The notes beneath the pieces were generated by a model. It was not told the DNA's origin and made no database searches. It saw only the letters and a program-made list of their open reading frames with translations. Source: Bacteroidaceae bacterium (lineage in GTDB: Bacteria > Bacteroidota > Bacteroidia > Bacteroidales > Bacteroidaceae). From it: a stretch of 45,430 nucleotides of DNA. Below are positions 1,778-45,247 of this stretch, piece after piece. Numbering within the stretch: the stretch's first letter is position 1; each line of letters opens with the position of its first letter. The DNA lies in NCBI GenBank assembly GCA_017429945.1, contig JAFRNY010000071.1, positions 1-45,430 of the forward strand, in the 5' to 3' direction. The position numbers were made by a program, and so were the translations under genes.

Positions 1778-2740
1778 TCAGAAATATGCGCGCAGGCCGA
1801 TGAGGAGGTTGACGCGCGAGAAGCCGTAGGACTTGCCTTTGGGCAGTTCGAGCCCGTCGGGCTCGCTGAAGGTGGTCCCCAGCACGTTGAGCTCGGCTCC
1901 CAGGCCTATATGGCGGGTGATGAGATATTCCGCGCCGGCTTTCCACAAGAATCCCACGCCGTTGCCCGAGAGCAGGCCGTAGCTGTAGTGGGCATAGCCG
2001 GCCCCCAGCGCCACCTCGGCGCCCCAGCGGTGTGCCTCGCGGTAGGCATAAACGATGGAAGGGCCTGCGTAGGTGAGGTTGACTTTGTCGTCGTCTACAA
2101 AGCCCCAGGTCCTGGCGAAGGTGGCTCCGACGCCCAATCCTGATTTCCACGTGTGCTCGTATTCGGCCATCAGGTCCATGGCAAAACAGCCCTTTCGCTT
2201 GCCTGAAGCGGTGTAGATGTCGGAATAGATCCACGCGGGTCCTGCGCTTAGCTTGACGGTGTTGCGCGGACGGTAGTCGTGGCTGAGGTCGTCGATCACG
2301 CGGCTGACCATGGCGGCGTCGCTGTTTATGCCGGCCTGTTGCTGTAGGAAGGCTGTGAAGGGCGATGTCTGTGCGTCGGGCAGCGAGAGCATAGTGGCGC
2401 TGATGCGGCAGGTGGATGTTCCCCGTGCCGGCGGCCGGTTCTCGTCGATACAGATGGCATTGGCGCCGTTCTCTGCTGCTTTCTTCTTAGCGTAGGAGAT
2501 GACGTAAGGCAGCGTGCCGCGCGAGGGCAGCGTAAGGCCGGAGTCTTTGACGCGCAGGCGGCCTACGGTGTCGCACGCTTCGGGCAGTGAGTCGAGGTGG
2601 CTGAAAGCCACAACTTTGTCGGCAGCGGTCGGTGGCAGCTGCTTGTCTATCTCGACTATGACCCGGGGATTTATGCAGGCCGAGAACACGAGGAGTGCTG
2701 CTGCGGCGGTGGCTGTGGGGCAGATGAGTGACTGTTTCAT
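1778..2740 (-). CDS. Outer-membrane beta-barrel lipoprotein, unknown role
   Basis: 320 residues. A hydrophobic signal ends in a lipobox-like LVFSAC, with Cys21 or nearby as the lipidation site. Residues about 30-110 form a soluble domain (KLPP-type DKVVAFSHLDSLP, then a VISYAKKKAAENGANAI helix). From about residue 160 the alternating Tyr/Gly/Ala strands and the terminal Phe (LRAYF) look like a small outer-membrane barrel. It is the last gene of the leftward nuclease operon, 28 bp after the endonuclease. The barrel call comes from residue pattern only. Its job in the locus is unknown; it could be an accessory porin-like or surface-anchoring protein. Confidence 0.6.
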   Translation of the reverse strand: MKQSLICPTATAAAALLVFSACINPRVIVEIDKQLPPTAADKVVAFSHLDSLPEACDTVGRLRVKDSGLTLPSRGTLPYVISYAKKKAAENGANAICIDENRPPARGTSTCRISATMLSLPDAQTSPFTAFLQQQAGINSDAAMVSRVIDDLSHDYRPRNTVKLSAGPAWIYSDIYTASGKRKGCFAMDLMAEYEHTWKSGLGVGATFARTWGFVDDDKVNLTYAGPSIVYAYREAHRWGAEVALGAGYAHYSYGLLSGNGVGFLWKAGAEYLITRHIGLGAELNVLGTTFSEPDGLELPKGKSYGFSRVNLLIGLRAYF

Positions 2741-2768
2741 GAGAATAGATGAATCCAGGTTTGCTGGT

Positions 2769-3677
2769 TCAGCGGAAACCCCAGGCTGTGCGGACTACGG
2801 CGCTCTCGGCCGCTTCTTCGTAGAGGTCGGGGAGGTTGCAGAAGAAGTCGATGCCTGTGAGGCGCTCGAGCTCGTCGATGCTGACTATATATGGGGCCAC
2901 GTTTTTCTCGTCGGCGTAGTCTCTGCGGTGCTCGAGGAAGAAGCCGATGGCTTTGTAGCCTCCGTTGGTGGTGCTGCGGGGGTCCTTGCAGAGGACGGCC
3001 ATGAAGAAGTATTTTGGCACGAGGAGCTGGTAGGCAGTGTTCTTGCGGACTATCTCAAGGATTTGGCTGGAGTTGTCGATAGTGCCGCCTTTGCATACGT
3101 AGAGCGTGTCGCGGAAGGCGTCGTTGTTCCACGAGCGCACTTTGGCCTCGAGTTTGGCCCAGATTCCTCCGTTAAAGTCGTAGAGCTGCGGCTGCATGTT
3201 AGAATAGAGAAAAGTCTGCTCATTCAACGCAATTGGCCTTTGCTGTCTATCTTCTGACGCTATCATGTGACCTCGAGTGTAGCCTGAGCCGCTATAAAAG
3301 TCCTCACGGTTGGTTCTGTAGAATTCTGGAATGTCGAAATCTTCACTCCAGGCTTCTGTACGCCCAATGTTATCATCATGATAGCTTTTATCCCATCGGA
3401 ACGCAGTCCAGCGTTGGGCTTTTTTGACGATGTCCCATTCGATGCAGAAGTTAATGCCATAACCAACAACTCTTTTAACTAAGAACATATTTTGATATCC
3501 GCCCTTGAGGTGTGGTATCTCGAGCCGGCCGGCTTCGGGGTGCTGGCCATGCGGGTTGGCGTTGGTGTTGACGGTGGCGGGGTTGCGGTGGTCGTCGTCA
3601 TTGGAGGTACAGCCGCAGAAGACGACAGGCAGAAGAGCAGTGATGAGGAATAACGAGTGTAGTGCTTGTCTATTCAT
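2769..3677 (-). CDS. Surface DNA/RNA non-specific endonuclease lipoprotein
   Basis: 302 residues. The signal ends at a lipobox, FCGC, with Cys23 the likely lipid anchor, so the enzyme probably sits on an outer leaflet. The beta-beta-alpha-metal nuclease signature is present: TRGH at 134-137 (His137 as the general base of the DRGH family) and the downstream metal-binding block with Asn160, Gln162, Asn169 and a W-x-x-LE helix at 173-178. The length suits a secreted NUC1/EndoG-like nuclease. In this family the enzyme cuts single- and double-stranded DNA and RNA without sequence preference. It lies between an OB-fold lipoprotein and a barrel lipoprotein, which suggests it fragments extracellular nucleic acid for uptake by the TonB-dependent receptor upstream. 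That role is inferred. Confidence 0.85.
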   Translation of the reverse strand: MNRQALHSLFLITALLPVVFCGCTSNDDDHRNPATVNTNANPHGQHPEAGRLEIPHLKGGYQNMFLVKRVVGYGINFCIEWDIVKKAQRWTAFRWDKSYHDDNIGRTEAWSEDFDIPEFYRTNREDFYSGSGYTRGHMIASEDRQQRPIALNEQTFLYSNMQPQLYDFNGGIWAKLEAKVRSWNNDAFRDTLYVCKGGTIDNSSQILEIVRKNTAYQLLVPKYFFMAVLCKDPRSTTNGGYKAIGFFLEHRRDYADEKNVAPYIVSIDELERLTGIDFFCNLPDLYEEAAESAVVRTAWGFR

Positions 3678-3691
3678 GGGGAGAGAATTGG

Positions 3692-3722
3692 GCGCGCCCC
3701 CTTGGGTAAGGAGGGGGCGCGC
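3692..3722 (-). promoter_or_regulatory. GC-rich intercistronic hairpin
   Basis: GCGCGCCCCC (3692-3701) and GGGGGCGCGC (3713-3722) form a perfect 10-bp stem with an 11-nt loop in the gap between the OB-fold gene and the nuclease start. No U-run follows on the minus strand, so it looks more like a processing or stability element, or an inserted repeat, than a terminator. Confidence 0.55.
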
Positions 3723-3744
3723 TTGGAATGATGAGGGGAGGGGC

Positions 3745-5739
3745 TTATTTCTTTACGATGGAATAGTCGTCGATGAGGACGTCCTTACCGGGATTCTTTG
3801 AGTTCATGATGACGAGGCAGACGGTGGTCTTCGATGAGAGGGTGAATTCATAGTCGACCTTGACCCAATTGCTGTTGAGGTCGTTGACATAACCGCCATA
3901 GACATAGCTGCCTACGCTGCCGTCGTCCTTGATGGGAACATAACCAGGGTTGACACTGCCGCCTTCGTCCGTTGCTGCTTTAGCATAGAATGAAACGGCA
4001 TAGGTGCCAGCCTCAAGAGTCATTTCTTCGTAAGCGATACGCTTGTTTGATGAAGCGCCGCCGACCTTCACGGAGTAGCTGCCGCCGTGGGCGTCGGTGC
4101 TCTGTTCGAGTGTGGCGCTGCTGGCTGTGGAGGCTGATTTCCAGCCTGTGGGCTGACCGCCCGACCAGCTCTCGAAGTCGCCGTTGGCGAAATCTGCGAG
4201 GGTCTTGGCGCCGCTGGGCGTCTCGCCGCCTTCGCCGCCTTCAAGGATTACGACGTCGGCGTTCTTGATCTCGGGCGTCACTTCGTCGTTCTTGACGTAT
4301 TTCATTAGCTGACCAGTGATCTTCACTTTCATGCCTACGGCGAATTCGCTTACGCCAGCGGGGAGGTTCGCCCAGTAGGCCTCGAAGACCTTGCCGCCGT
4401 CCTTAGTGTCGGCCATCCAGAATGATTGCTGGTTGCGGCTTACGTTGCCGATGACTTCGGTGATATAGCCGGTGACGGTGTAGGTGTCGGTGGAGGTGGC
4501 GCCGTCGGCGAGGGCTTTAGTGAGGTCAACGGCCTGAGCGCAGGTGACTGCGATGCCTTCTGCGGGCGTCTCGCCGCCGCCATCGCCTTCCTCAAGGATT
4601 ACTACGTTGGCGTTCTTGATCTCGGGCGTCATCTCATCGTTCTTCACGTATTTCATGAGCTGACCGGTGATTTTCACTTTCATGCCTTTCTTGAACTCGC
4701 TGACGCCAGCGGGGAGGTTTGCCCAGTAGGCCTCGAAGACGCGGCCGCCGTCCTTGGTGTCGGCCATCCAGAAGGTCTGCTGGTCGCGGCTTACGTTGCC
4801 TACGACTTCGGTGATATAACCGGTGACGGTGTAGGTCTCGGCCGATGTGCCGCCGTCGGCGAGTGCTTTGGTGAGGTCAACGGCTTGTGCGCAGGTGACG
4901 GGAATGCCTTCAGCGGGCGTCTCGCCGCCGCCATCGCCTTCCTCGAGGATTTCCACGGTGGCGTTCTTGATCTCGGGCGTCATCTGGTCATCCTTGACAT
5001 ACTTCATGAGCTGACCGGTGATCTTCACCTTGCTGCCGACCTTGAATTCGCTTACGCCTTCGGGGAGGTTTGCCCAGTAGGCTTCGAAGACGCGGCCGCC
5101 GTTCTTGGTGTCGGCCATCCAGAAGGTCTGCTGGTTGCGGCTTACGTTGCCCACGACTTCGGTGATATAACCGGTGACGGTGTAGGTTTCGGCCGATGTG
5201 CCTCCGTCGGCAAGTGCTGCTGTGAGCTCTTTGGCTTCGGCGCAGGTGACGGGAATGCCTTCAACGGGCGTCACGCCTCCGCCTTCTTCAAGAATCTCGA
5301 CGTTGGCATTCTTGATTTCGGCCGTCATCTTGCCGGTGTTGTTGTTGACATATTTGGTGAGCTTGCCGGTGATTCTTACCTTGCTGCCAGCCTTGAATTC
5401 GCTGACGCCTTCGGGGAGGTTTGCCCAGTAGGCCTCGAATACGCGACCGCCGTTCTGCGCGTCGGCCATCCAGAACGTCTGTTGGTTCTTGCTGACTTCG
5501 CCTACGACCTCGGTGATATAGCCGGTGATGGTGTAGGTGTCGGCCGACGTAGCGCCGTCGGCGAGCGCCGCTGTCAGCTCTACGGCTTCGGCGCAGGTCA
5601 CCTCGATGCCTGTGGGTATTTCAGGCGTATCGCCGCCTTGCTCTGTTGGGATGTTGTAGGGCTCAGGCACGTCCTCGCATGCTGTGAACGCTCCTACTGT
5701 GAGTGCTGCGCATAGCAGCAGTTTCCAATACTTTTTCAT
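3745..5739 (-). CDS. Lipoprotein with four tandem OB-fold-like domains
   Basis: 664 residues. The signal ends in FTAC, with Cys21 lipidated. Four near-identical 117-residue units follow (about 44-160, 161-277, 278-394 and 395-510). Each has a VTCAEA start, a T-(I/V)-TGYITEV strand, a QQ(T/S)FWMAD segment and a K-ITG-L-KYV strand. This is the strand pattern of bacterial OB-fold nucleic-acid-binding domains (YhcR/DUF6359-like). The C-terminal 150 residues look like a beta-sandwich carbohydrate-binding-type module (NGDFESW start, IDDYSI end). Units are joined by Gly/Glu-rich linkers. It lies between a DUF5689 lipoprotein and a nuclease, so nucleic-acid capture at the surface is the likely job. 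The DNA repeats are 351 bp each, so copy number may vary between strains. Confidence 0.7.
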   Translation of the reverse strand: MKKYWKLLLCAALTVGAFTACEDVPEPYNIPTEQGGDTPEIPTGIEVTCAEAVELTAALADGATSADTYTITGYITEVVGEVSKNQQTFWMADAQNGGRVFEAYWANLPEGVSEFKAGSKVRITGKLTKYVNNNTGKMTAEIKNANVEILEEGGGVTPVEGIPVTCAEAKELTAALADGGTSAETYTVTGYITEVVGNVSRNQQTFWMADTKNGGRVFEAYWANLPEGVSEFKVGSKVKITGQLMKYVKDDQMTPEIKNATVEILEEGDGGGETPAEGIPVTCAQAVDLTKALADGGTSAETYTVTGYITEVVGNVSRDQQTFWMADTKDGGRVFEAYWANLPAGVSEFKKGMKVKITGQLMKYVKNDEMTPEIKNANVVILEEGDGGGETPAEGIAVTCAQAVDLTKALADGATSTDTYTVTGYITEVIGNVSRNQQSFWMADTKDGGKVFEAYWANLPAGVSEFAVGMKVKITGQLMKYVKNDEVTPEIKNADVVILEGGEGGETPSGAKTLADFANGDFESWSGGQPTGWKSASTASSATLEQSTDAHGGSYSVKVGGASSNKRIAYEEMTLEAGTYAVSFYAKAATDEGGSVNPGYVPIKDDGSVGSYVYGGYVNDLNSNWVKVDYEFTLSSKTTVCLVIMNSKNPGKDVLIDDYSIVKK
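4200..5610 (-). repeat. Four 351-bp tandem coding repeats
   Basis: The landmark GCCCAGTAGG occurs at 4370, 4721, 5072 and 5423, exactly 351 nt apart, so whole 117-codon units are duplicated. The three units nearest the C-terminus are the most alike, which points to recent expansion by recombination. Confidence 0.85.
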
Positions 5740-5803
5740 AATATATGTAGTTTTATCAAAATCAATTATGAATTATGAATTTCCAATTTTCAATTTTCAA
5801 TTT

Positions 5804-6658
5804 TCAATTACCCTTTATGTCCTCTTCGGCACGGATGAGAATCTGCCAGGTGTCGCGGTAGCGCGTGGCGATTCCGTAGAGCGTGACGGGCGTCGAGGGT
5901 ATAACCCAAGATGCGAAGTCGGCGTAGGTGCTGGTGCGGAGGAGCAGCTTGCTCATCGACTGTCCGTTGATGGAGTGGTGGACGTAGCCGTTGCTTGAGC
6001 CGTTGTAGATGAGCGGTGTGCCTGCTTTGTACTCAGGTGCTATGGGATAGCCAGCGTCGCCGATGCTGACGTTCTCGAGCTTCACGAGATATCCGCAGTA
6101 GCGGTCAATGTCGGCCTGTGCGACCTTGAAGAAGTCGAGCGTGTCGATTTGACTCATGTCGTGCGTGGGCAGCACTTTCACGTGCTGTTCCCATTTCTCG
6201 GTTGACATACGTCCGATACTGTTGTTGTATTCGTCGCCGAGCTGGGGCTGTTCGCCATAGCCTCCAATGCAGAGGTCCTTGAGGTCGATGAGGAGCTGCT
6301 GGCCTACGCTGAGGAAGGGGAACAGTCCGGTGCCGTTGATGCCCACGACGAGTGCTCCTGTGGCGTCCTGCACGATGATCTGCTTGTAGATATTTCCGCC
6401 TATGTCGTTGCCGATGACGGTGGCGCGCAGCTGCAGTTCTTCGGTGATGCGCTCGAAGCTGCTGTTGGCGATGGCCTTGGAGTATTTGGCCTTGAGGTCG
6501 GCGATGGTCACTTGCTTGGCCTGGTCTTCGACAATCTCGTTGTTGCCGTAGGGCGGGTTTGTCATATCGGGCGTGTCCCAGTCGCTGTCGAAGCAGGAGA
6601 CGAAGGTAAAGGATAGAGCCAATAGTGCCAAACCTTTGTATATTGTCTGTGGTTTCAT
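5804..6658 (-). CDS. DUF5689-domain surface lipoprotein
   Basis: 284 residues. Lipoprotein signal with lipobox FVSC (Cys22), followed by an acidic Asp/Asn-rich linker. The body has the DUF5689 pattern: TIADLKAKY near residue 52, an LRATVIGNDIGGNIYK strand pair, IIVQDATGAL, then VGQQLLIDLKDLCIGG, and a C-terminal LYGIATRYRDTWQILIR segment. The fold is an OB-like beta barrel that usually accompanies TonB-dependent receptors and secreted nucleases in Bacteroidota. It lies 52 bp downstream of the receptor gene and probably forms its surface lid or substrate-binding partner. The function is inferred from context. Confidence 0.75.
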   Translation of the reverse strand: MKPQTIYKGLALLALSFTFVSCFDSDWDTPDMTNPPYGNNEIVEDQAKQVTIADLKAKYSKAIANSSFERITEELQLRATVIGNDIGGNIYKQIIVQDATGALVVGINGTGLFPFLSVGQQLLIDLKDLCIGGYGEQPQLGDEYNNSIGRMSTEKWEQHVKVLPTHDMSQIDTLDFFKVAQADIDRYCGYLVKLENVSIGDAGYPIAPEYKAGTPLIYNGSSNGYVHHSINGQSMSKLLLRTSTYADFASWVIPSTPVTLYGIATRYRDTWQILIRAEEDIKGN

Positions 6659-6710
6659 AACGATAAGTCTTATATTCGTATAATTCGTGTAATTCGTTGT
6701 GAGAAAGAAA

Positions 6711-9272
6711 TCAGAACCTGTAATTGAGGTTGAGCATGAAGTTGAAGCCCTGCACGTAGTACTTCATCGGGTTCTTCTGGAAGTTGTAGGTGCGGATTGA
6801 GGTCTTCTCGCCGGTGGTCTGGTCTGTGGTGTAGTTTGATCGGCTCTGCTCGAATCCTCCGCTCACGAGCTTGCGGTTGTTGAGGATGTTTGTGAGCATG
6901 AGATTCACGCTGAGGGGGTGGTGGTTAATGCGGAACTGGTGGCCGATAGAACCGTCGAGCATAAAGCCGCCGTGGCCCTTGGTCTGCTCGGGCACGATGA
7001 GCGTGCCGTCGACGTCGACCGCTCCGGAGCGTATGAGCGTGCTCTCGTAGCGCAGCGACGGGGAGTAGGAGAGGTAAATGCGGTCGTAGTAGTTGCCCTT
7101 GAGGTTGAAGTACCATCCGCTGACGTTGTAGTTCAGGCCGATGCTCCCGACGGTGAGGGGCGTGCTGGCCTCGCGCATACCTTTATTATATAGTACGTCG
7201 TGAGTGACGGTGCCTTGAGTGGAGAGTAGGTAGCTGACGTCGGTGTTCTTGGTGTACTTGGCGTCGGCCATAGAACCGATGAGGTCGAGCGTGAGGCCCG
7301 ATGTGATGTTGAAGCGCACGCCCAGTTCTACGCCGTAGTAGTTCTTCTCGACGCCCGTCATGCTGACGTAAGTGAACGAGTTGACGTCGTCGTAGTAGTA
7401 GTTCTGCCACTCGTTCATGCGTGTTCCGTGGTTGAAGTAGGCCGTGAGGTTAGCGCGCATGAAGCTGGTGACGAAGGCATATCCGAGCTCGGCGCTCACC
7501 ATGTGCTCCACTTTGAGTCCGTCGATGAAGTTGTTGTTCATTTCAGCAGCCTGGAAGGCCGAGCCGCCGTAGTTGCTGTAGGCCGTGGGGGCATAGGTCA
7601 TATAGCTCACGCCCATGCCTACGACGTGGCCCTTGCCGAGGTTGAGGTTCGTCCCGATCTTGGCACCTCCGTCGAGGAACCGTGCTGTTCCGCTCTTGCC
7701 GTAGCTGTTGTCGGCAAAGAGTCCGTTGCGCATCTTACCGTCGCGCCACATCTGCGTGCCGCCGATCTTGGCGCTGATGAAGCTGTGGCTGATGCCCTTC
7801 TCGCGCACGTACTGCGCCCAGGCCGTGGCCTTCTGCACTACGATGTTGAAGTCGTAGCCGAAGCGGTCGCCTTTGGCCACGGTGCCGTTGGGGTTGTTGA
7901 GGTCGTACTGCACGCGCGGGTCGCTGCCGGCGTAAGTGCCTACGGCGTAGTTGTTGATATTGTGGAGGTTGGTGGCGCCCATCATGTCCGAGATGGTCTG
8001 ATAGTGCATACCTGTGTTCGATGCCAACTGAATACCAGCCTGCAGCTTGTTCTCGCGGTTGATGTCCCAGTTGAGCGTCGAGCCGAGGTTGAATGCGAGG
8101 TGGTCGTTGTGGCGCGCGAGCATGTAGTAGGCAGCGTCACCGCCCACGGCGTTCATCTGCTGGTTGGCGTAGTAAAGGCGGTCCCACTGAATCTGGCGGT
8201 TGGCCTTGGCGGCTCTCCAGTAGTCGTAGCTCTCCTGCCAGGCTGCGAGGTCGTTGTTCGAGCCGTCGGACTCGCCCCAGACGTCGTAGTTGTACGAGGG
8301 GAAGTTCTTCCAGTAGTCGGGCTTGGGGTTGAGCGAGTTGTTGTACTGCAGGCGTGTGCCGCTGTACATGGCATATTTGCCGTAGAACGACGTCGTGAGC
8401 TTGAGGTCGTCGTTGATGTTGAAGTCCCAGGTTATGAGGGCCGACGGTTCGTAGTTGTGCACTACGCGCGAGTTACGCTTCTTGCCGTCCTGATAGCCCC
8501 AGTAAGGATTGTAGAGGTAGTTGTTGGCGAGCCAGTAGGCCTCGTCGGTCGAAGCTCCCTGTTGTGCGCGCTCGGTGGGGTTGCCCCAGGTGGCGATGTT
8601 GAGGCTGTGGCGGTAGCCCCATCGCTTCTCGAGCGAGAGGAAGTAGGCGAGCGAGTTGTAGAACGTACCCTCTACGGCCGCCGTGTTCATGTTCGCCCAG
8701 CGATAGCCTACGGTGCCGAAGAAGGCCCATCCGCTCTCCTTGACGCCAGTGCCGAAGGTGTACATGGCTCGGGCGGTGTAGTTGCGGTTTAACGCAGACA
8801 GCGTAACTTTGTGGCCTGCAGCATAGTTACTGGCTCGGAAGTTGTAGTTGTTTGAGCCTCCGAGGGCTGCGATGCCGAAGGTGTTCGACTCGAAGGGCGA
8901 AGCGTAGTCAATACCTCGAGTGGCGTCGTTCATTCCACCGATCGTGGAGTAACTGAAGCGCCCGTTCTCGGCGGAATTCACCTGTACGCCGTTCATGTAG
9001 ATGTCGTTGTACTTCTGGTCCAGCGCCCTGAACTTGAAGCGCATGGGACTGAAGAGGTAGCCGACATTGCTGGTGTACACGTTCGTGCTGGAGCTGATTT
9101 GGATGACGTCCTGCGTCACGTCAGCGTCCTCGTCGAGCTGTGATTCGGTGAAGATGTATGAGGCAGCCTCGTCCTTCAACGCCTTCTCCGTCTCGCTCGT
9201 TACCGGCTCCTGGGCCCATCCGTTGAGGGCGAGAAATAGGAGCGCAGCTGCTGATAGAAGTCTTTTTCTCAT
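6711..9272 (-). CDS. TonB-dependent outer-membrane receptor of the nuclease locus
   Basis: 853 residues with a cleavable signal (MRKRLLSAAALLFLALNGWAQ). No carboxypeptidase-regulatory-like N-terminal domain is seen; the protein goes almost directly into a plug-like region (DVIQISSS, then FKFRALDQKYNDIYMNGV near residue 80). The remainder is a barrel rich in aromatic strands, ending NLNYRF, a typical C-terminal insertion signal. It is the first gene of a five-gene leftward operon with DUF5689, the OB-fold lipoprotein, the nuclease and the barrel lipoprotein. That makes it the probable importer of oligonucleotides or nucleosides released at the surface. The substrate is inferred from its neighbours. 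I saw no clean TAnnTTTG promoter upstream. Confidence 0.8.
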   Translation of the reverse strand: MRKRLLSAAALLFLALNGWAQEPVTSETEKALKDEAASYIFTESQLDEDADVTQDVIQISSSTNVYTSNVGYLFSPMRFKFRALDQKYNDIYMNGVQVNSAENGRFSYSTIGGMNDATRGIDYASPFESNTFGIAALGGSNNYNFRASNYAAGHKVTLSALNRNYTARAMYTFGTGVKESGWAFFGTVGYRWANMNTAAVEGTFYNSLAYFLSLEKRWGYRHSLNIATWGNPTERAQQGASTDEAYWLANNYLYNPYWGYQDGKKRNSRVVHNYEPSALITWDFNINDDLKLTTSFYGKYAMYSGTRLQYNNSLNPKPDYWKNFPSYNYDVWGESDGSNNDLAAWQESYDYWRAAKANRQIQWDRLYYANQQMNAVGGDAAYYMLARHNDHLAFNLGSTLNWDINRENKLQAGIQLASNTGMHYQTISDMMGATNLHNINNYAVGTYAGSDPRVQYDLNNPNGTVAKGDRFGYDFNIVVQKATAWAQYVREKGISHSFISAKIGGTQMWRDGKMRNGLFADNSYGKSGTARFLDGGAKIGTNLNLGKGHVVGMGVSYMTYAPTAYSNYGGSAFQAAEMNNNFIDGLKVEHMVSAELGYAFVTSFMRANLTAYFNHGTRMNEWQNYYYDDVNSFTYVSMTGVEKNYYGVELGVRFNITSGLTLDLIGSMADAKYTKNTDVSYLLSTQGTVTHDVLYNKGMREASTPLTVGSIGLNYNVSGWYFNLKGNYYDRIYLSYSPSLRYESTLIRSGAVDVDGTLIVPEQTKGHGGFMLDGSIGHQFRINHHPLSVNLMLTNILNNRKLVSGGFEQSRSNYTTDQTTGEKTSIRTYNFQKNPMKYYVQGFNFMLNLNYRF

Positions 9273-9405
9273 TGGTAAAGTAACAAAATATGGTATTTTC
9301 GCTACAAAGAAAAGAAATAAATCTTAAACTTGGAAAGGATTTCGCCATTATTTTTAAAAGATTAAAAAAAAGCTCGATTTATGCTGCTACTTCCGCAAAA
9401 ACAAT

Positions 9406-9413
9406 TATCTTTG
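9406..9413 (+). promoter_or_regulatory. -7 promoter element
   Basis: TATCTTTG matches TAnnTTTG and lies 41 nt before the ATG at 9454. No clear TTG is seen 19-20 nt upstream, so the assignment rests on the -7 element alone. The region is the divergent spacer shared with the receptor gene. Confidence 0.5.
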
Positions 9414-9453
9414 CCGCTGATTATCGAAAATACTATCAAATACCAAAAGGAAT

Positions 9454-10491
9454 ATGTTCAATCGACTATCTTTAATTGTGTGTTGCGCCCTGCTCAGCAT
9501 TGGCGCTATGGCCCAAAACGGCCGCGTCGGGATGTACAGCATCGGTTTCTACAATCTTGAGAATCTTTTTGACACTCAACACGATGAGGGAAAGAACGAC
9601 TATGAGTTCCTGCCCGACGGCACCAACAAGTGGACCAATATGAAATATCAGCATAAGCTGAAGAATATGGCCCGCGTGCTGGCAGAGATGGGAACCGATC
9701 GCGTGCGCACCGGCTGCGCCGTCATCGGCGTGAGCGAGGTCGAGAATGCGCACTGCCTGCGCGACCTCTGTGCCCAGGAGCCTCTGGCAAAGCGCAACAT
9801 GAAATTCTGTCACATCGAAGGTCCCGACAACCGTGGCGTAGATTGCGGCCTGCTCTATAACCCTACGTTCTTCACGCCCGCCAAGGTTTGGCTGCAGCCC
9901 TATGTGCTGAAGGACCGCGATGCGCGCCCCACCCGAGGCTTCCTCACGGTGCAGGGCTTGCTGGCCGGCGACAGCCTCACCGTCATCGTTTGTCACTGGC
10001 CCAGCCGCTTCTCCGGCAAGTCGGCCCGCGTGTGGGCGGGCGAGCAGGTGCGCCACGAAAAAGATAGTATCGTGCGCGCCAATCCGCGCATGAAAATCCT
10101 CATCATGGGTGATATGAACGACGATCCCTTCGACGAGTCCATGGCCCGTGGCCTCGGCGCCCGCCGCAAGCTGGCCGACGTGAAGACGCCGATGGATCTG
10201 TTCAACCCCTGGTGGCAGATACTGCTCAACGGCAGCGGCACCCTCAAGTACGACGGCAAATGGAATCTCTTCGACCAGATCGTCATGAGCCAGAGCCTCA
10301 CACGCGGCACGACCGCCAAGGACTATTCCTCGCTGACATACTATAAGGCCGACATCTTCAAGCGCAACTACCTGCTGCAGGACAGCGGCAAATACAAAGG
10401 CAACCCCAAGCGCACTCACGCCTCAGGCGTATGGCTCGACGGCTTCTCCGACCACTTGCCCGTCGTGGCCTATTTCGTCAGGAAACTCTAA
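9454..10491 (+). CDS. Secreted endonuclease/exonuclease/phosphatase-family protein
   Basis: 345 residues with a signal peptide ending GAMAQ. The metal-dependent EEP fold motifs appear in order: YNLENLFD (near 34), GVSEVEN (near 91), RGVDCGLLYN, CHWPSR with the catalytic His, GDMNDDP, FDQIVMS and the final GFSDHLPVV with the Asp-His pair. All catalytic positions look intact. Family members cut phosphodiester bonds in DNA, RNA or phosphorylated small molecules. Divergent placement beside the receptor/endonuclease operon suggests it completes breakdown of nucleic-acid fragments in the periplasm. That is inferred; a phosphatase or sphingomyelinase-like activity cannot be excluded. Confidence 0.85.
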   Translation: MFNRLSLIVCCALLSIGAMAQNGRVGMYSIGFYNLENLFDTQHDEGKNDYEFLPDGTNKWTNMKYQHKLKNMARVLAEMGTDRVRTGCAVIGVSEVENAHCLRDLCAQEPLAKRNMKFCHIEGPDNRGVDCGLLYNPTFFTPAKVWLQPYVLKDRDARPTRGFLTVQGLLAGDSLTVIVCHWPSRFSGKSARVWAGEQVRHEKDSIVRANPRMKILIMGDMNDDPFDESMARGLGARRKLADVKTPMDLFNPWWQILLNGSGTLKYDGKWNLFDQIVMSQSLTRGTTAKDYSSLTYYKADIFKRNYLLQDSGKYKGNPKRTHASGVWLDGFSDHLPVVAYFVRKL

Positions 10492-26914: not shown

Positions 26915-26936
26915 ATTCTTCATTCTTCATTCCTCA
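26915..26936 (-). repeat. Heptamer-period tandem array
   Basis: ATTCTTC, ATTCTTC, ATTCCTC between the SusD stop and DUF4843. Confidence 0.6.
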
Positions 26937-28469
26937 CTTGTTCGCCTCCCTCTGTGCGGCCTCGGTCTCGGTGATGGGCAGTGGGAAGGTGTAGACCTTC
27001 TCGGCTACGGCATCGACGTCGGAGTAGAGGATGTTCTGTCGGTTCAGACGCTTGTAGAGGAAGAAGAGCTGTCCTTCGCCCAGGAACTCGCGACGGTATT
27101 CGCGGATGAGCTCCAGCTCGAAGTCGGCGGGCAGCTCGCTCATGGCAGGCAGGTTGCGAGCTGTGCGCAGCTGGTTGAGGGCTGCACGTGCGCCGTCGGT
27201 GTTGCCTTGGCGATAGAGCACTTCGGCACGAATAAGGACCATCTCGGCGATGCGTATGAGCGGCATCTTATAGTTGTAGAAAGTGTTGGAGCCAGCTGGC
27301 TCGTCGTACTTCATCAGGTAGCGGTTGTTGGCATGGGTGGAAGAGCCGGACTTGAAGAGGAAGGTGTAGCGATAGTCCTGCGTGGCGTTGTCGAAGTAGT
27401 CGAGCAGGCGGTCGCGCGTCACGGCAAAGCTGTACTGCGACCCATCGTCGAAGTAGCGGTCGGCAACGTCGGCTTTCAGCGTCAGATTGTTGAGGGCGAA
27501 CAGGTGTTCTGTGGCCAGACAGCGGTCGTAGCCTGCCTGCAGGTTGGCCACGGTGGCCCAGGGGAACTTATCGGCGTTGAGCACGACGTCGGCAGCTTCG
27601 AGAGCACGGTCGTAGTCGCCTTTCCACATGTGGAGGCGTGCCTCAAGAGCCTTCACGGCGTAGTAGTTGAGGTGCAACTGTCGGTTGAGCAAGTAGCCGT
27701 TGTCTATGCTCTCGGTGATCTCGCGGCCCGTTACTATCGGGTCGGCCTTCTCGAGGAGTGCTTCGGCAGCTTGGAGGTCGGAGAGCACGGCGTTGGCCAC
27801 TTCGCGCACGGTGAGTTGTGGGAATACGCGGTAGCTCAGCGCGGTAGAGTAGGGGATGGCAGGCTGGTCGGCGTTCACGGCAAAGCTGACGCCGAAGCAG
27901 CGCAGGAGGTCGAAGTGGAGGAAGGCGCGCAAGGCCAGCGCTTCGCCTTTGATGACATCGTGGTTGTCGGCGGCAAAGAGGCTTGGTTTCTCATCGATGT
28001 GAGCCAGCAGGTTGTTGGCGTTGGCGATTCCGCTGTAGTTGTTGGCCCATATGGCACGGATATAGTTCGTAGGGTAGGCGGCGTCGTAGTCGAAGGCGGC
28101 AGCGTCGTCGTATTGGCTGGCGTAGTAGAAGTCCCATTCGTGGCCGAGCACGCCGATGAAGCCATAGGTGGCCTCCTTGGCGTAGGTGCCGCTGTTGACC
28201 ATCGACGAGTAGACGCCTGCCAGCGCCTCCTTGAAGCCGCTTTCGCTCTCGAAGAGCTCGGTGTCCTCTACCTGCGACCGAGGCTGCACGTCGAGCCAGT
28301 CGTTGCAGCTGGTCATGCTGGTGAGAGTGAAAAGTGATAGAGTGAAAAGTGAAAAATAAAAAATACTCTTCACTTGGCTCTTGCACCAGTTTACTATAAT
28401 GTGTTGTTTATGATTCATAATCTTCTTAAATCCTAATGAAACTTTCATTTTCATTTTTTCGCTTTTCAC
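26934..28469 (-). CDS. SusD/RagB-family surface lipoprotein
   Basis: 511 residues. It starts 3 bp after the SusC stop; an alternative ATG at 28418 gives a shorter lead-in to the signal. Lipobox SMTSC, then the standard CNDWLDVQPRS mature start. SusD features: an ELFESESGFKEALAGVYS helix, ANNLLAHID, GEALALRAFLHFDLLRCFG (TPR region) and the C-terminal RIAEMVLIRAEVLYRQGN and REFLGEGQLFFLYKRLNR blocks. It forms the lid over the SusC barrel and binds the incoming substrate. Which substrate is not shown; the DUF4843 and PKD-like neighbours favour peptides over a glycan. Confidence 0.92.
   Translation of the reverse strand: MKSEKMKMKVSLGFKKIMNHKQHIIVNWCKSQVKSIFYFSLFTLSLFTLTSMTSCNDWLDVQPRSQVEDTELFESESGFKEALAGVYSSMVNSGTYAKEATYGFIGVLGHEWDFYYASQYDDAAAFDYDAAYPTNYIRAIWANNYSGIANANNLLAHIDEKPSLFAADNHDVIKGEALALRAFLHFDLLRCFGVSFAVNADQPAIPYSTALSYRVFPQLTVREVANAVLSDLQAAEALLEKADPIVTGREITESIDNGYLLNRQLHLNYYAVKALEARLHMWKGDYDRALEAADVVLNADKFPWATVANLQAGYDRCLATEHLFALNNLTLKADVADRYFDDGSQYSFAVTRDRLLDYFDNATQDYRYTFLFKSGSSTHANNRYLMKYDEPAGSNTFYNYKMPLIRIAEMVLIRAEVLYRQGNTDGARAALNQLRTARNLPAMSELPADFELELIREYRREFLGEGQLFFLYKRLNRQNILYSDVDAVAEKVYTFPLPITETEAAQREANK
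28323..28373 (-). repeat. Signal-peptide-coding repeat, SusD copy
   Basis: + strand GAGAGTGAAAAGTGATAGAG, then more AGTGAAA units and TCTTCAC at the end. The counterpart of 26758-26808. Confidence 0.8.
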
Positions 28470-28472
28470 TTG

Positions 28473-31400
28473 TCAGAACGTAGCCGTCACCGCCAGCGAG
28501 AAGGTGCGGGCGTAGGGGTAGCTGAGACCGCGCTCGGCACGGATGGTGGAGAGGTGGAAGACGTCGTTCATATAGGCTGTCACGCGCAGGCGTTCGAGCT
28601 TGATGCGCTGAAGCCAGCTGCAGTATTTGAAGTCGTAGTAGGCCGAGAGCGTGGTCAGGTCGAGCATGTTGTTGCGCTGGATGAAGCGCGTGGAGGCATA
28701 CGTCGTGGTGGGCGTGGCCGAGATGTGCTTGTAGAGCGCCACGTCGCCCGGCTGGCTCCACGTGTCGGAGAACACGCGGCGGTCTACGTTGCCGGCGATG
28801 TTGACGTTTTCGACGCGGTCCACGAGCGTCTGGTTGTAGAAGTCGCCGCCCATCTGATAGCTCAGCAGCAGGCTCAGACCGATGCCCTTGACCTCGCCGT
28901 TGAAGCCTAAGGTGCCGTGCACCTTGGGGTTGGAGTCGCCGCCGATGATGTAGTCGTCGGTGGTGTAGTCGTAGGTCGTCGTGCCATCCTTCTTGACGAA
29001 CATTTCGCGGCCTGTCGCTGGATCAATGCCTAACGACTTCACCGCCCAGATGACGCTCATCGACTGCCCTTCCTCGTAGCGGATGATGGGCGAGGTGGTG
29101 TTCTCGGCGTCCTGTTCGCGGTTGAAGGTCGAGAGGGCATCGCTGATTTTCGTCACCTTGTTGACGTTGTGCGCGATGCTACCTGTGAGGCTCATGTACG
29201 ACTGTCCGCTTTGGTAGAAGCGCCAGTTGGCGGTGGCCTCAATGCCTCGGTTCTGCACGTTGCCGAGGTTTTCCATGTAGGAGGTGAAGCCCGTCGACGT
29301 GGGGATAGACATGGCGATGAGGGCGTCGCGCGTGCGGCTGTCGTAGTAGTCGAAGCGCAGGTTCAGGCGTTTCCACAGCCCGAGGTCGAGTCCCACGGTG
29401 AAGTCGCCCGTCTGTTGCCATTTCAGGTTCGGGTTAGGCATTCCCATGAGGTAGGCGCCCGAGATATTGTCGTAGATGATATTGTCGTAGAACTTGTAGG
29501 TGGCTTTGGCCTGATAGGGCGAGAAGTTCTGGTTGCCGGTGAGGCCGTAGGTGACGCGGAACTTGCAGAGGTTCAGCCACGTGGCGTCGCGCATGAAGTG
29601 TTCCTTGTGGAGGTTCCAGCCCGCACCCGCACTCCAGAACGTACCCCAGCGGTTGTCCGAGCCGAACACCGACGAGCCGTTGAAGCGCAGACTTACGTCG
29701 AAGAGGTAGCGCTCGTCGTAGCTGTAGTTGGCGGCGCCAGTGATGCCGAGCGAACGTGTGCGGCTCTCGGCGCCAGAGGGCTTGCCGCCCTCAGCATATT
29801 GCTTGGCGAAGGTGATGTAGTCGACGTGGTTGTTGAGGAATCCCCAAGCTGTCATGCCCTCGCTGTTGCTGCTGGCCGACTGCATCGAGTAGGCGGCGTT
29901 GGCCAGCAACAGGTGCTTGTCCCACGTGTGGGAGTAGTTGCCCGTGAGGTCCACGCTGAGGCTGTTGGTCTCGCCGTTGGTGATGGCGTAGCTGCCGCGC
30001 TGGAAGTAGCGGTCGCCCGTCCAGTCGTTGAAGCGTGTGTGGTCGCCCGGATAGAAATCTTCGCGTTTGTTGTTCTGGTGGGTATAGCCCAGGCGAGCCG
30101 TGAAGCGAAGGTCGTCGATGGGGCGGTATTCGAGGTAGAAGTTCTCGACCACCTCGGTGTACTTCGAGAAGTTCTTGGTGCCGAGCGTGGCGTTGTAGAG
30201 CGGGTTGTAGTAGGTCGTGGTGCTGCCGTTGGCGCCAGGCGAAGTGTAGGTGCCCAACACCTTCTGCACGTTGCCGAAGGCATCCGTCGAGGTGAAATAA
30301 GGATTCACGGTGACGTAATCGGAGAAGCTCCCGTAGGGGCTGTCGTCGGCGTTGTTGCCGGTGACCGAGAGCGAGTTGCGGAACATCCATTGCTTGTAGC
30401 GGTAGCTCAGGTTGATGTTGCCTTGCAGCGTCTTGCGCCCCGACTCCTTCATCACGCCGGCCACATTGTTGTACATCAGGTTGGCGGCATAGCGCATCTC
30501 CTCGGTGCCTCCTTCGACGTAAGCCGTGTGCTTGTTGCCCACGCCCGACCGCAAGGGTTGCGACAGCCAGTAGGTGTCGACGCCGCGAGCAATGTTGGCC
30601 GCGATGGCATTGTATTGCTCGTCGAGCAGTGCCTGATAGTAGGGTGAGGCTGAAGTGTAGCGCCCTGCGTTCTGCTCTACGCGCAGTTTCTCTTCGGCGT
30701 TGCAGAGGTCGTAGGTCGTAAGGTCGGGCAGTTCCATGTTGACATCGCCGGTGTAGGTGATGCGCAGGCGGCCAGCCTCGGGCAGGATGGTCTCTACGAC
30801 GATGACGCCGTTGCTGGCCTTGGAGCCGTAGATGGCCTTGGCTGCGCCGTCCTTGAGGATGGTGACGCTCTTGATACGGTTCATGTCGAGGTCGAAGATC
30901 TGCTGCTGAGTGGCCTCGAAACCGTCGAGGATGAAGAGCGGCGCGTTGGGGTTGCCGCTGTATTCGCCCTGGAGTCCGCCGAACGAAGCCTTGCCGCGGA
31001 TGGTGATGTCGGACATATAGTTGGGGTTGGAGCCGTTGATGTTGTTCATGTCGACAATGAACGACGGGTCGAGCGACTGGATGATCTTCAGCACGTTGGA
31101 GTTGCCTACGAGCTTCAGGTCCTCCTGCGAGTAGCTGACAGCCGAGCCGGTGAAGGTCGACGATTTATAGTCGAACAGACCCGTGACAACCACTTCTTCC
31201 ATGTCGCCGCTCTCTTGCAGCACGATGATTTCCTTCGTGTAGTTGCGCTTGCCGTCGTACTTCTTCGATGTCGGTTTCATGCCGGCGTAGGAGAAGTCCA
31301 GCGTCACCGCCTGTCCACGCGGCACACCGATGACGAAGTTGCCGTCGGCATCGGCCACGGCTCCAGCCTTTGTCTCACGGACGCGCACGCTGGCCATGGG

Positions 31401-31646
31401 GAGCGTCTCGCCGTGGCTGTCCTTGACCGTTCCCTGCACAATCAGTTCACCGGCCGGCAGCTGGCCCTGTGGCCGCTGTGGTGTCACCTGTTGCATGGGC
31501 ACCGACGTCTTATCCTTGGTCGTATTGGTTTGCGCAGTAGCCGTCGTGAAAGCAACGAGCATGGCGGTCAAGGCCATGGCACGGCCCAACCGGCCAGCCT
31601 GCACACGTGAACGGCTCACTTTCATGCTTCTTTTTTTGAGTTTCAT
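28473..31646 (-). CDS. SusC/RagA-family TonB-dependent transporter
   Basis: 1057 residues, full length. A long signal ends ATAQ. The CarboxypepD-regulatory-like domain follows (LIVQGTVKDSHGETLPMASVRV, then a TLDFSYAGMKP strand), then the TonB-box-proximal MEEVVVTGLFDYK, the plug (NVLKIIQSLDPSF, ITIRGKASFGG, PLFILDGFEA, IKSVTILKDGAAKAIYGSKASNGVI) and a 22-strand barrel ending in Phe (LAVTATF). It imports substrate captured by SusD. First gene of a five-gene leftward operon. The -7 element at 31674-31681 leaves a short leader of about 20 nt. An alternative start is Met8 at 31625. No sigma/anti-sigma or hybrid two-component regulator is adjacent. Confidence 0.93.
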   Translation of the reverse strand: MKLKKRSMKVSRSRVQAGRLGRAMALTAMLVAFTTATAQTNTTKDKTSVPMQQVTPQRPQGQLPAGELIVQGTVKDSHGETLPMASVRVRETKAGAVADADGNFVIGVPRGQAVTLDFSYAGMKPTSKKYDGKRNYTKEIIVLQESGDMEEVVVTGLFDYKSSTFTGSAVSYSQEDLKLVGNSNVLKIIQSLDPSFIVDMNNINGSNPNYMSDITIRGKASFGGLQGEYSGNPNAPLFILDGFEATQQQIFDLDMNRIKSVTILKDGAAKAIYGSKASNGVIVVETILPEAGRLRITYTGDVNMELPDLTTYDLCNAEEKLRVEQNAGRYTSASPYYQALLDEQYNAIAANIARGVDTYWLSQPLRSGVGNKHTAYVEGGTEEMRYAANLMYNNVAGVMKESGRKTLQGNINLSYRYKQWMFRNSLSVTGNNADDSPYGSFSDYVTVNPYFTSTDAFGNVQKVLGTYTSPGANGSTTTYYNPLYNATLGTKNFSKYTEVVENFYLEYRPIDDLRFTARLGYTHQNNKREDFYPGDHTRFNDWTGDRYFQRGSYAITNGETNSLSVDLTGNYSHTWDKHLLLANAAYSMQSASSNSEGMTAWGFLNNHVDYITFAKQYAEGGKPSGAESRTRSLGITGAANYSYDERYLFDVSLRFNGSSVFGSDNRWGTFWSAGAGWNLHKEHFMRDATWLNLCKFRVTYGLTGNQNFSPYQAKATYKFYDNIIYDNISGAYLMGMPNPNLKWQQTGDFTVGLDLGLWKRLNLRFDYYDSRTRDALIAMSIPTSTGFTSYMENLGNVQNRGIEATANWRFYQSGQSYMSLTGSIAHNVNKVTKISDALSTFNREQDAENTTSPIIRYEEGQSMSVIWAVKSLGIDPATGREMFVKKDGTTTYDYTTDDYIIGGDSNPKVHGTLGFNGEVKGIGLSLLLSYQMGGDFYNQTLVDRVENVNIAGNVDRRVFSDTWSQPGDVALYKHISATPTTTYASTRFIQRNNMLDLTTLSAYYDFKYCSWLQRIKLERLRVTAYMNDVFHLSTIRAERGLSYPYARTFSLAVTATF

Positions 31647-43291: not shown

Positions 43292-43302
43292 TCAGATCTC
43301 AT
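43021..43302 (-). pseudogene. Decayed reading frame downstream of the methyltransferase
   Basis: One minus-strand frame starts with an ATG overlapping the methyltransferase stop (43300-43302). It reads MRSDILIAHVGEFHLVIEIK, then GLQT, TAG (43228-43230), 27 residues beginning LDPLLKHL, TGA (43144-43146), and about 40 residues ending KTIPIIVNVQ before TAA at 43021. The pieces look protein-like and stay in one frame, which suggests a gene with nonsense mutations. I do not recognise the family; the DILI-x-HLVIEIK stretch is reminiscent of a PD-(D/E)xK nuclease strand. Confidence 0.35.
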
Positions 43303-45247
43303 TCGATTTTTGTTGCCTATGTTTCTTTAGTGTTGAAGGTTTAGATGCCTTCTTTCTTTTCTTTTTTGGCAACAATTGTTGATACATCGCGAACAAACGG
43401 TCGAATATCTCATCATCAGATAATGAGAGATTAAAACCATAGGCTTTCATCACGGCAATATCATTACGTTCATGTGCTTCTCGCAGCTCTTGGTGCATAC
43501 ACATTGGTGAATACATGGCAGCGAGAGAACTTCCTGGATGAATGTTTCGTGCATCAAGAATGGCTCGCGCGGTGTCTGAAATGCTTTCTCGAGTTTCTTC
43601 TGAAGACGTAGGCCAAGGGAAGTTATTATAAACGAGGTCTTTGGAGTAACGATACCTCATCTCTAATCGCCCACAAACGGCTTTCAACCATGCCATGTGA
43701 ACTCGTGACTGCATAACGCCGAATTCATACAACGATGCATTTGGCACCATTTGCACAGCATCTGTTGCTATGTATTGTGGATTGATGAAGCCCATAGGTA
43801 CATAGATTCTATTTTCTGACGAATGTCGTGGCACTAATAAGTAATTGCAATTGGGCTGACGAATCTCTTGGAAGAGAGGAGAACTATCACAATTGTTAGT
43901 AGCCGCTTTCTTGCTGTTGCTCCTGAAATCCTTGACTTGCTTTAGCCGACGTTTTATAAAAGGGGAATGGTACAAATCATTGGGGTCTGCTCCTACCAGC
44001 CATAGGCAATATCTGCGCTCACCTTGAAGAAATTCCTTCGCTCCCAGCAAAGGACGTATGTATTTTTCAAGAGATGATTCATTCGTCAAAGCTTCCTCTC
44101 GCTCTTTCTCAGAGAGTATAAAACCATTACCGTCAGCGGGCTTGTTGCCATACAACATATATGGAACCTCGCATAGTGGTTTTGTCTTTGGTAGAATGAA
44201 TGCGTCTTCTTTATCCAGCAGGTATGGGTTGATGTGTTTTGAACTAATCTTGGAGCCGTCAGCACAGTAGATGACAGGATTTGCAGGCGACTTTTTGCAT
44301 AGCGAGAAGCCGATAATCACACAATGTACCTGAGCTGTCTTGCGTTTAGCGTTTCCCTTTACCTTTCTTATCCCTTTTCTCTTATTCTTCACTTCTGAAT
44401 CCCATCGGAAAGTGCGGTAGGCAAAATCAAAACGTATGTTATAACGTTCTTTCAGCGGTTGCCAGATATATGCTACTTGCTCACCCTGTGTTACGGAATT
44501 TGTGGAGACCAACGCTGCTCTGATGCTCGTGCCGTGCATCATCTCGCACGCTTTAAAATACCACCCTGACACAAAATCCACCTTTCCTGCAGCACGTATA
44601 GGTTTGCCATTCGCCTTCACAAGAACATGCTTCAGCGACTCTTTCTGCATCTTCGTTTGTTCTGAATATCCAGCAAATGGAGGATTCCCAATGATGTAGT
44701 TGAGCTTCCGTTTCCCGACGATATGAGACCAGTTCGCATACAAAGCATCATCTTGTATTATATTGAGGTTGGATTTGAGCGGTAGGAAATCATCATGTTG
44801 GCCAAGTATTCGTGCGGTCTCTTGGAACATCTGAGCTTCACTGATCCACAGTGCCGTTCGAGCAACCTCAACAGCAAAGTCATTTATTTCAATACCGTAG
44901 AACTGCGAAGGTGAAACAAGAATGGCTTGTGCCATGTTTTGGAGGTGCAGTTGTGTGTTGTAGTCGCCCAACCGCACATTGATGGCAATATTCTCCAAGC
45001 GGCGTAATGACAGATATGTCTCAGTCAAAAAGTTGCCACTCCCGCAAGCTGGATCAAGGAACGTAAGAGAAGCTAGTTTCTGCTGGTATAGAGTTAGCTT
45101 GTCGTTGCGAATCTTGTTATTTTTCACATTAAGTATTTCGTCTAACTCTTCTGTCAACTTTTTAAGGAAAAGGGGTTCGATGACTTTATGGATATTCTCG
45201 ACACTGGTGTAGTACATACCACCCTCATGGCGAGTCTCTGGGTTCAA
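43292..45247 (-). CDS. 5'-truncated MmeI/type IIG-like DNA methyltransferase
   Basis: 651 residues from a TTG at 45247. The frame stays open upstream to 45340 (reading LPIKNTLQNELYATISPTIFGALFEST), with a TGA at 45341-45343 and no ATG. SAM motif I is DPACGSGNF (65-73) and the adenine-methyltransferase motif NPPF is at 188-191. Downstream come target-recognition and C-terminal regions (FPWPTSSEE, ILDARNIHPGSSLAAMY) like MmeI-type proteins. Full-length relatives are about 900 residues, with an N-terminal nuclease and helical region that are absent here; the sequence homologous to the family begins close to the edge repeat at 45295-45312. Methylation without restriction, or no function, is likely. 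More AT-rich than the central genes, as if acquired. Confidence 0.75.
   Translation of the reverse strand: MNPETRHEGGMYYTSVENIHKVIEPLFLKKLTEELDEILNVKNNKIRNDKLTLYQQKLASLTFLDPACGSGNFLTETYLSLRRLENIAINVRLGDYNTQLHLQNMAQAILVSPSQFYGIEINDFAVEVARTALWISEAQMFQETARILGQHDDFLPLKSNLNIIQDDALYANWSHIVGKRKLNYIIGNPPFAGYSEQTKMQKESLKHVLVKANGKPIRAAGKVDFVSGWYFKACEMMHGTSIRAALVSTNSVTQGEQVAYIWQPLKERYNIRFDFAYRTFRWDSEVKNKRKGIRKVKGNAKRKTAQVHCVIIGFSLCKKSPANPVIYCADGSKISSKHINPYLLDKEDAFILPKTKPLCEVPYMLYGNKPADGNGFILSEKEREEALTNESSLEKYIRPLLGAKEFLQGERRYCLWLVGADPNDLYHSPFIKRRLKQVKDFRSNSKKAATNNCDSSPLFQEIRQPNCNYLLVPRHSSENRIYVPMGFINPQYIATDAVQMVPNASLYEFGVMQSRVHMAWLKAVCGRLEMRYRYSKDLVYNNFPWPTSSEETRESISDTARAILDARNIHPGSSLAAMYSPMCMHQELREAHERNDIAVMKAYGFNLSLSDDEIFDRLFAMYQQLLPKKKRKKASKPSTLKKHRQQKSNEI

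Follow-up and report, generated by a model that had tools for sequence, protein, structure and literature searches.

The DNA analysed here, called the window, is a stretch of 45,430 nucleotides (nt) from a Bacteroidaceae bacterium (contig JAFRNY010000071.1 of assembly GCA_017429945.1), and at positions 1778 to 10491 it holds six genes that are probably, for the most part, the outer-membrane part of a DNA-uptake machine. An initial annotation had described them as one leftward operon with a divergent partner, and all six open reading frames (ORFs) are present where it placed them, on strands and with gaps that agree with this description. In order of transcription, the minus strand encodes a TonB-dependent receptor (6711-9272), proposed to be an outer-membrane DNA channel; a DUF5689 surface lipoprotein with two OB-type halves (5804-6658), its proposed DNA-binding partner; a lipoprotein with four OB-fold repeats and a C-terminal domain (3745-5739), which appears to be a lineage-specific accessory; a surface lipoprotein nuclease of the Endonuclease_NS (NucA/EXOG/Serratia) kind (2769-3677); and a barrel lipoprotein (1778-2740), possibly co-transcribed. 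From the barrel gene up to the receptor, the same-strand gaps are 28, 67, 64 and 52 nt. The receptor gene is 181 nt from the divergent gene on the plus strand, which encodes a secreted phosphodiesterase of the EEP (exonuclease III-like) family (9454-10491). Pfam bears out the labels given to these proteins: DUF5689 (4e-55), NUC1-type nuclease (7e-41), OB (tRNA_anti-codon, 1.5e-10) and EEP (Exo_endo_phos_3, 5e-93). The barrel lipoprotein matches OMP_b-brl (2e-7).

In Bacteroidota, an acidic stretch after the lipobox cysteine is a mark for export to the cell surface. The DUF5689, nuclease, OB and barrel proteins of the window have a lipobox pattern, followed by several acidic residues in the DUF5689 protein and in the nuclease (CTSNDDD). 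A lipobox was present in 91 of 111 DUF5689 ORFs, 77 of which have at least two acidic residues after the cysteine, and in 32 of 49 nuclease ORFs, 27 of which have at least two such residues; the figures for EEP ORFs are 13 of 100 and none. Some ORF starts behind these tallies are uncertain. The start of the EEP enzyme is signal-peptide-like and lacks the acidic lipoprotein signal.

The sole experimental result found on a relative of these proteins comes from Riemerella anatipestifer, in which deletion of either RA0C_RS04915 or RA0C_RS04920 puts natural transformation below detection (PMC8459023). The same paper describes RS04915 as an outer-membrane protein with a carboxypeptidase-regulatory domain and RS04920 as a DUF5689 and DUF5017 protein, and sets out a model, speculative in the authors' own terms, in which RS04920 binds double-stranded DNA for transfer across the outer membrane by way of RS04915.

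A published R. anatipestifer primer, searched in 320 genomes of one family, matched three genomes of a single genus. In each of six genomes from this genus, a single receptor (E ≤ 3e-250) lies next to a single DUF5689 match; one genome (G758) has an additional, weaker full-length receptor match (4e-95). The gene order in another (G757) is recA, four genes (dinB, sdhB, sdhA and sdhC, identified by eye), comEC, two genes, EEP, receptor and DUF5689, with Pfam matches to RecA (6e-137), Competence (3e-57), Exo_endo_phos_3 (2e-99), CarboxypepD_reg (1.5e-8) and DUF5689 (5e-56), respectively; its DUF5689 protein also has a DUF5017 match below the Pfam cut-off. Locus tags of R. anatipestifer are assumed to step by five per gene. 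Counting from recA as RS04870 gives RS04895 for comEC, RS04910 for EEP, RS04915 for the receptor and RS04920 for DUF5689, and the counted tags of recA, comEC and the pair are those used in PMC8459023. By this count, the receptor/DUF5689 pair of this genus is RA0C_RS04915/RS04920.

The window receptor is 25% identical to that of Riemerella over 858 columns (BLASTP, E 2e-69), the DUF5689 proteins are 25% identical (E 1e-14) and the EEP enzymes 28% (E 1e-50). Judged by sequence, the window receptor and DUF5689 protein are orthologues of RA0C_RS04915 and RA0C_RS04920. The two loci share the order of receptor and DUF5689 lipoprotein and the divergent EEP gene. They differ in that the Riemerella receptor carries CarboxypepD_reg, whereas the window receptor has no match to it, in keeping with the earlier remark that it lacks the usual SusC N-terminal domain. 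Furthermore, the DUF5689 protein is 467 amino acids (aa) long in Riemerella but 284 aa in the window, where it is without the C-terminal DUF5017-like part, and the window operon adds the OB-array and nuclease lipoproteins. Neither recA nor comEC was seen among the window proteins scanned. Linkage of comEC to the receptor was rejected as a general rule: the two are within 30 kilobases (kb) of each other in G151 and G288 only, comEC in the other genomes compared (by eye) being far away or on another contig.

The receptor is treated as a separate kind, here called type A, because Pfam is blank for it and its own profile misses the ordinary SusC of the window. At E ≤ 0.1 the window receptor has no Pfam match, Plug and barrel models included, and at E ≤ 10 the receptor profile has no match to that SusC (28473-31646), which is recognised by Plug and TonB_dep_Rec and belongs to a SusD/SusC pair in a separate locus (26934-31646). 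The operon had been said to have no SusD, and a Pfam scan found none among its proteins; the DUF5689 and OB-fold lipoproteins stand at the place of SusD in the operon, as would suit the suggestion that they replace it. The predicted structure of the receptor (predicted local distance difference test, pLDDT, 78; plug region of low confidence) resembles TonB-dependent receptors in Foldseek (E 7e-26 to PqqU, also Fiu and FhuA), the nearest folds being siderophore, pyrroloquinoline quinone (PQQ), cobalamin and copper receptors. PDB sequence searches with the receptor and the DUF5689 protein gave a partial match to OprC (5e-4) and were otherwise at chance level. Conserved columns in 32 receptors include 14 basic and 7 acidic ones, counted without a control set. 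In a tree of 34 type-A receptors and 18 more distant receptors of a second kind (type B), the two kinds split with support of 100, and the window and Riemerella receptors fall into one type-A group (support 100) apart from type B, which rules out confusion between the two kinds. Inside type A, the rows of one family mostly stand together; family f1 is not strictly one clade.

Type-B receptors have neighbours of their own. At L159, L161, L164, L165, L167, L171 and L172 they adjoin proteins of 308 to 353 aa, which by eye we take to be lamin-tail domain proteins, and several of the type-B loci encode a large, apparently secreted protein as well, the one in L164 matching the DUF5689 profile weakly. 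These loci are possibly another nucleic-acid set. At L156 (4611-10779), in a Bacteroidales genome without a DUF5689 Pfam match, a 627-aa protein and then another lipoprotein come after a type-B receptor.

The best 80 of at least 595 loci in a receptor scan, here the related loci, are nearly all labelled Prevotellaceae, Bacteroidaceae, Prevotella or Bacteroidales. Two (L017 and L068) are labelled Clostridium and Eggerthellaceae yet have a Prevotella-type locus, and are probably misbinned or mislabelled contigs. Gene orders were counted in a six-frame census; an ORF-based census gave lower counts for DUF5689 (70/78 and 32/34), probably through longer antisense ORFs displacing genes. DUF5689 follows the receptor within 500 nt in 80 of 80 Prevotellaceae-type loci. 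Of the 74 that extend far enough, 71 have the EEP gene immediately upstream in divergent orientation; two of the remaining three have no EEP gene, and in the third it lies 2 kb away on the same strand. Across the wider class, 169 of 396 genomes have a DUF5689 match. A wider sample of 43 stretches (39 around chosen DUF5689 matches, three from Riemerella and one 10-base placeholder) contains a type-A receptor in 37, with DUF5689 following it in 37 of 37. The six without one are the placeholder, four stretches with weak DUF5689 matches (L120, L148, L149 and L150) and L128, an exception in that the receptor of its genome, G072, is on another contig (L170) without DUF5689 beside it. EEP is adjacent in 28 of 36 wider loci (26 divergent, two on the same strand), downstream in two and not found in six. 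The conserved gene set that the initial annotation proposed to look for does recur, in that the core of an EEP gene divergent from a receptor gene followed by DUF5689 is widespread across loci.

Copy number was assessed with a 32-row receptor profile in 80 of the 396 genomes. One full-length receptor (E ≤ 1e-274) was found in 33 of 33 genomes with a strong DUF5689 match, the genome of the window included, and no full-length type-A receptor in the other 47 (35 without DUF5689, 12 with weak matches), one of which (G388) has a partial match running into N. In Flavobacteriales, 26 of 79 genomes have one match (E ≤ 6e-224), five of them shared with the first set. In a chosen set of Bacteroidales, 38 of 79 genomes have the receptor (E ≤ 6e-136), at one place each. 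All nine genomes of family f3 match, G770 with two copies and two genomes with the receptor in pieces. The receptor is usually single-copy across Bacteroidia.

The predicted structure of the DUF5689 protein (pLDDT 90) consists of two OB-type halves, and its top PDB matches in Foldseek are HIN-200 domains (IFI16, p202 and p204) and RPA (E 5e-5 to 1e-3). HIN-200 and RPA are DNA-binding families. The modelled OB-type halves are thus a structural reason to expect nucleic-acid binding by this protein. Elsewhere in the genome of the window, an 841-aa ORF that runs off the end of its stretch (L002, G000:C3) has a weak DUF5689 match (6e-8) and adjoins what by eye is an endonuclease I-like protein, making a possible second nucleic-acid pair.

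In the EEP enzyme, the N, E, H, D, N and SDH positions, which we take to be catalytic, are conserved in all 49 proteins aligned; a PDB sequence search with it gave one marginal match. The nuclease matches an Anabaena NucA-type entry (7.5e-15) and EXOG (2e-14) in PDB sequence searches, and the catalytic His and the metal-binding Asn and Glu of its motif are kept in 19 of 19 aligned proteins, that of the window included; the first residue of its DRGH motif is Thr, not D. A downstream nuclease is found in 41 of 60 Prevotellaceae-type loci and in 6 of 33 wider loci, all six from family f1. In the other 27 of the 33, no such nuclease was found within about 7.5 to 9 kb on the same strand, and it could lie elsewhere in the genome. 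In G031 and G069, the nuclease, EEP, receptor and DUF5689 genes are contiguous and co-directional. At the loci of these two genomes, a further large protein adjoins the nuclease (L117, 14351-18290; L118, 16027-17787); that of L117 has a DUF5689 domain (2e-23), and the nuclease next to it a sub-cut-off BACON match.

The OB protein had been credited with four domains, and four repeats are indeed present, 71 to 89% identical in protein; relatives with one to four OB repeats occur in 29 other loci. In DNA the repeats are 75 to 89% identical and, because of this, the array may be expanding or homogenising. The barrel lipoprotein, originally counted as one of the parts, does not keep that place: no relative was found at E ≤ 1e-3 in any of the 80 related loci, some of whose contigs end close behind the nuclease. 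The barrel gene is therefore regarded as a neighbour outside the conserved set.

Because relatives of the pair are needed for transformation in Riemerella, a DNA-import machine is favoured over a feeding locus. The DUF5689 lipoprotein, helped here by the four-repeat OB lipoprotein, would hold extracellular DNA at the surface, and the surface nuclease would nick, open or trim it at entry, as compared below with EndA and NucM. The dedicated receptor, energised by TonB, would then carry DNA across the outer membrane, and the secreted EEP enzyme would work in the periplasm, where it might strip off one strand ahead of ComEC. The origin of the single strand for ComEC is called unknown in PMC8459023. 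By analogy, TonB probably drives the complex; in R. anatipestifer, tonBA and tonBB mutants transform less (PMC8383284). From the orthology, gene order, predicted folds and conserved active-site residues found here, we infer DNA as the cargo, the receptor as the channel, the nuclease and EEP steps with their order, and use of the set by this organism. It is an even question whether pilus-free, TonB-powered import of DNA is widespread in Bacteroidia, by way of a dedicated TonB-dependent receptor that is usually present once per genome and has a DNA-binding lipoprotein with two OB halves instead of SusD; gut Bacteroidales would have added a surface nuclease and OB arrays.

The initial annotation had assigned the locus to nucleic-acid utilisation. 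Its nucleic-acid theme stands, given the OB and nuclease set, but utilisation as the purpose lacks support, the Riemerella orthologues being needed for transformation. Nutrition is our second choice of purpose and rather unlikely: the same machine would cut extracellular DNA or RNA and import the pieces for phosphate, nitrogen or nucleobases, with transformation a by-product or confined to some species. The nuclease fits either role, and the addition of surface nuclease and OB lipoproteins in loci of the family of the window (with nuclease in 41 of 60 Prevotellaceae-type but only in f1 among wider loci) would suit scavenging, as would the contiguous gene set of G031 and G069. A section heading reports that transformation of R. 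columbina goes up on phosphate or peptone restriction, but it is reported to go down in R. anatipestifer. However, no phosphate or nucleoside uptake gene was found among the window proteins scanned (relatives were not searched systematically), the deletions in the one tested relative abolish transformation, and the nuclease is missing near the set in the 27 wider loci described above. TonB-dependent receptors mostly carry small ligands, and with siderophore, PQQ, cobalamin and copper receptors as the closest folds, import of a metal, peptide or oligosaccharide could be imagined, loss of the receptor in R. anatipestifer then blocking transformation indirectly; iron limitation is also reported to lower transformation there. 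This is improbable, as the receptor usually stands with an OB-fold lipoprotein and an EEP enzyme and, within its own family, also with a nuclease, the receptor is well conserved (mean column identity of 57% among 60 Prevotellaceae-type rows) and both mutants are below detection, not merely reduced. Least probable is degradation of extracellular DNA (from biofilm, traps or phage) at the surface with no import of polymer. The surface-export-type signals on the nuclease and DUF5689 protein would suit it, but a receptor of TonB-dependent fold, the most conserved member, would be unneeded, and no such nuclease turned up close to the set in those 27 of 33 loci.

Several points weigh against the DNA-uptake reading itself. 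The measurements in the parts of PMC8459023 covered are of how often cells transform rather than of DNA transport, its main text nowhere uses the word 'complementation', and the R. anatipestifer EEP gene does not figure in the mutant tables covered. The tonBB effect is ascribed to iron in PMC8383284, and Flavobacterium johnsoniae, which has the homologues, gave no transformation in the conditions of the published test (PMC7965970), a result that suits scavenging. The Foldseek template modelling (TM) scores of the DUF5689 protein are low (0.20 to 0.36 relative to the query), indicating a match of the halves and not of the entire protein. Its Pfam model reaches wider than this system: it also matches in a B. 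subtilis control, and the type-A receptor is absent from 12 of 12 tested genomes with weak DUF5689 matches alone. Moreover, the 627-aa protein of L156 matches our own DUF5689 profile (6e-29) and, as it accompanies a type-B receptor, a DUF5689-like partner is not confined to type A. The metagenome-assembled genome of the window (82.4% complete) has no ComEC match, and its only HhH match is a 730-aa ORF; ComEC was found in 9 of 9 other tested genomes of its family. Co-occurrence of the set with ComEC (65/70) and with HhH proteins (65/68) was rejected as a signal, since both are near universal and do not discriminate. Finally, G1127 has no receptor match at E ≤ 1e-20. A P. gingivalis 16S primer matches the 16S of G1127 with two mismatches, no exact match being found among 393 genomes, and the family of G1127 may hold Porphyromonas. 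The receptor is present in seven of eight genomes of this family, G1127 being the one without. P. gingivalis is competent (PMC11532111), so either DNA enters by a different route in this lineage or other sets exist besides this one.

Among known systems, the type IV pilus/PilQ route brings DNA across the outer membrane (PMC8459023, introduction), and such passage is also proposed for the set in the window. In contrast to that route, the conserved set has no pilus gene and the channel would be a TonB-dependent receptor. For P. gingivalis, PMC11532111 describes the outer-membrane passage of DNA as unclear and the type IV pilus-like pilus as not involved. Pneumococcal EndA and Moraxella NucM are cell-associated nucleases with a role in transformation, proposed to act at DNA entry (PMC3764208 and PMC6384898). 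The window nuclease belongs to the same group (DNA/RNA non-specific, DRGH-type) but is a Bacteroidota lipoprotein with the Thr substitution noted above, and a competence role for it would be by analogy. With a SusCD-type polysaccharide utilisation locus the window shares a TonB-dependent receptor fold, surface lipoproteins and enzymes in one operon; it differs in having no SusD, no match to the SusC N-terminal domain and no conserved glycan enzyme. A glycan locus was rejected on the absence of SusD and on the neighbouring GH125 gene, found in 2 of 80 related loci (many of these contigs end before its position). Related loci were thus not seen to sit consistently with glycan enzymes, a case raised at the outset as contrary to a nucleic-acid role.

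Both the receptor/DUF5689 pair and its proposed role in moving DNA are already known; the class-wide spread, the EEP partner, the nuclease and OB additions and the OB-type fold are added here. PMC8459023 calls homologues widespread in Bacteroidetes, yet reports that of RS04915 in Flavobacteriaceae only, whereas the same set is found here across Bacteroidia, gut Bacteroidales included. DUF5689, by name or Pfam number, turned up in a single open-licence paper, and no Bacteroidales version was recognised in open-licence literature by title and start of abstract; subscription papers were mostly outside this scope, and no claim is made that it is unpublished. The set addresses the open question of how DNA crosses the outer membrane in Bacteroidota and, by offering candidate genes for all of the steps, opens DNA import, and with it gene exchange, to direct testing in a dominant gut phylum.

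The remainder of the window holds separate carbohydrate loci (12899-40156) encoding GH125, two GH97 proteins, the SusC/SusD pair and a sodium:solute symporter domain with kelch-type repeats. Near the window end, an MmeI-type DNA methylase with target-recognition domains is encoded at 43292-45247.

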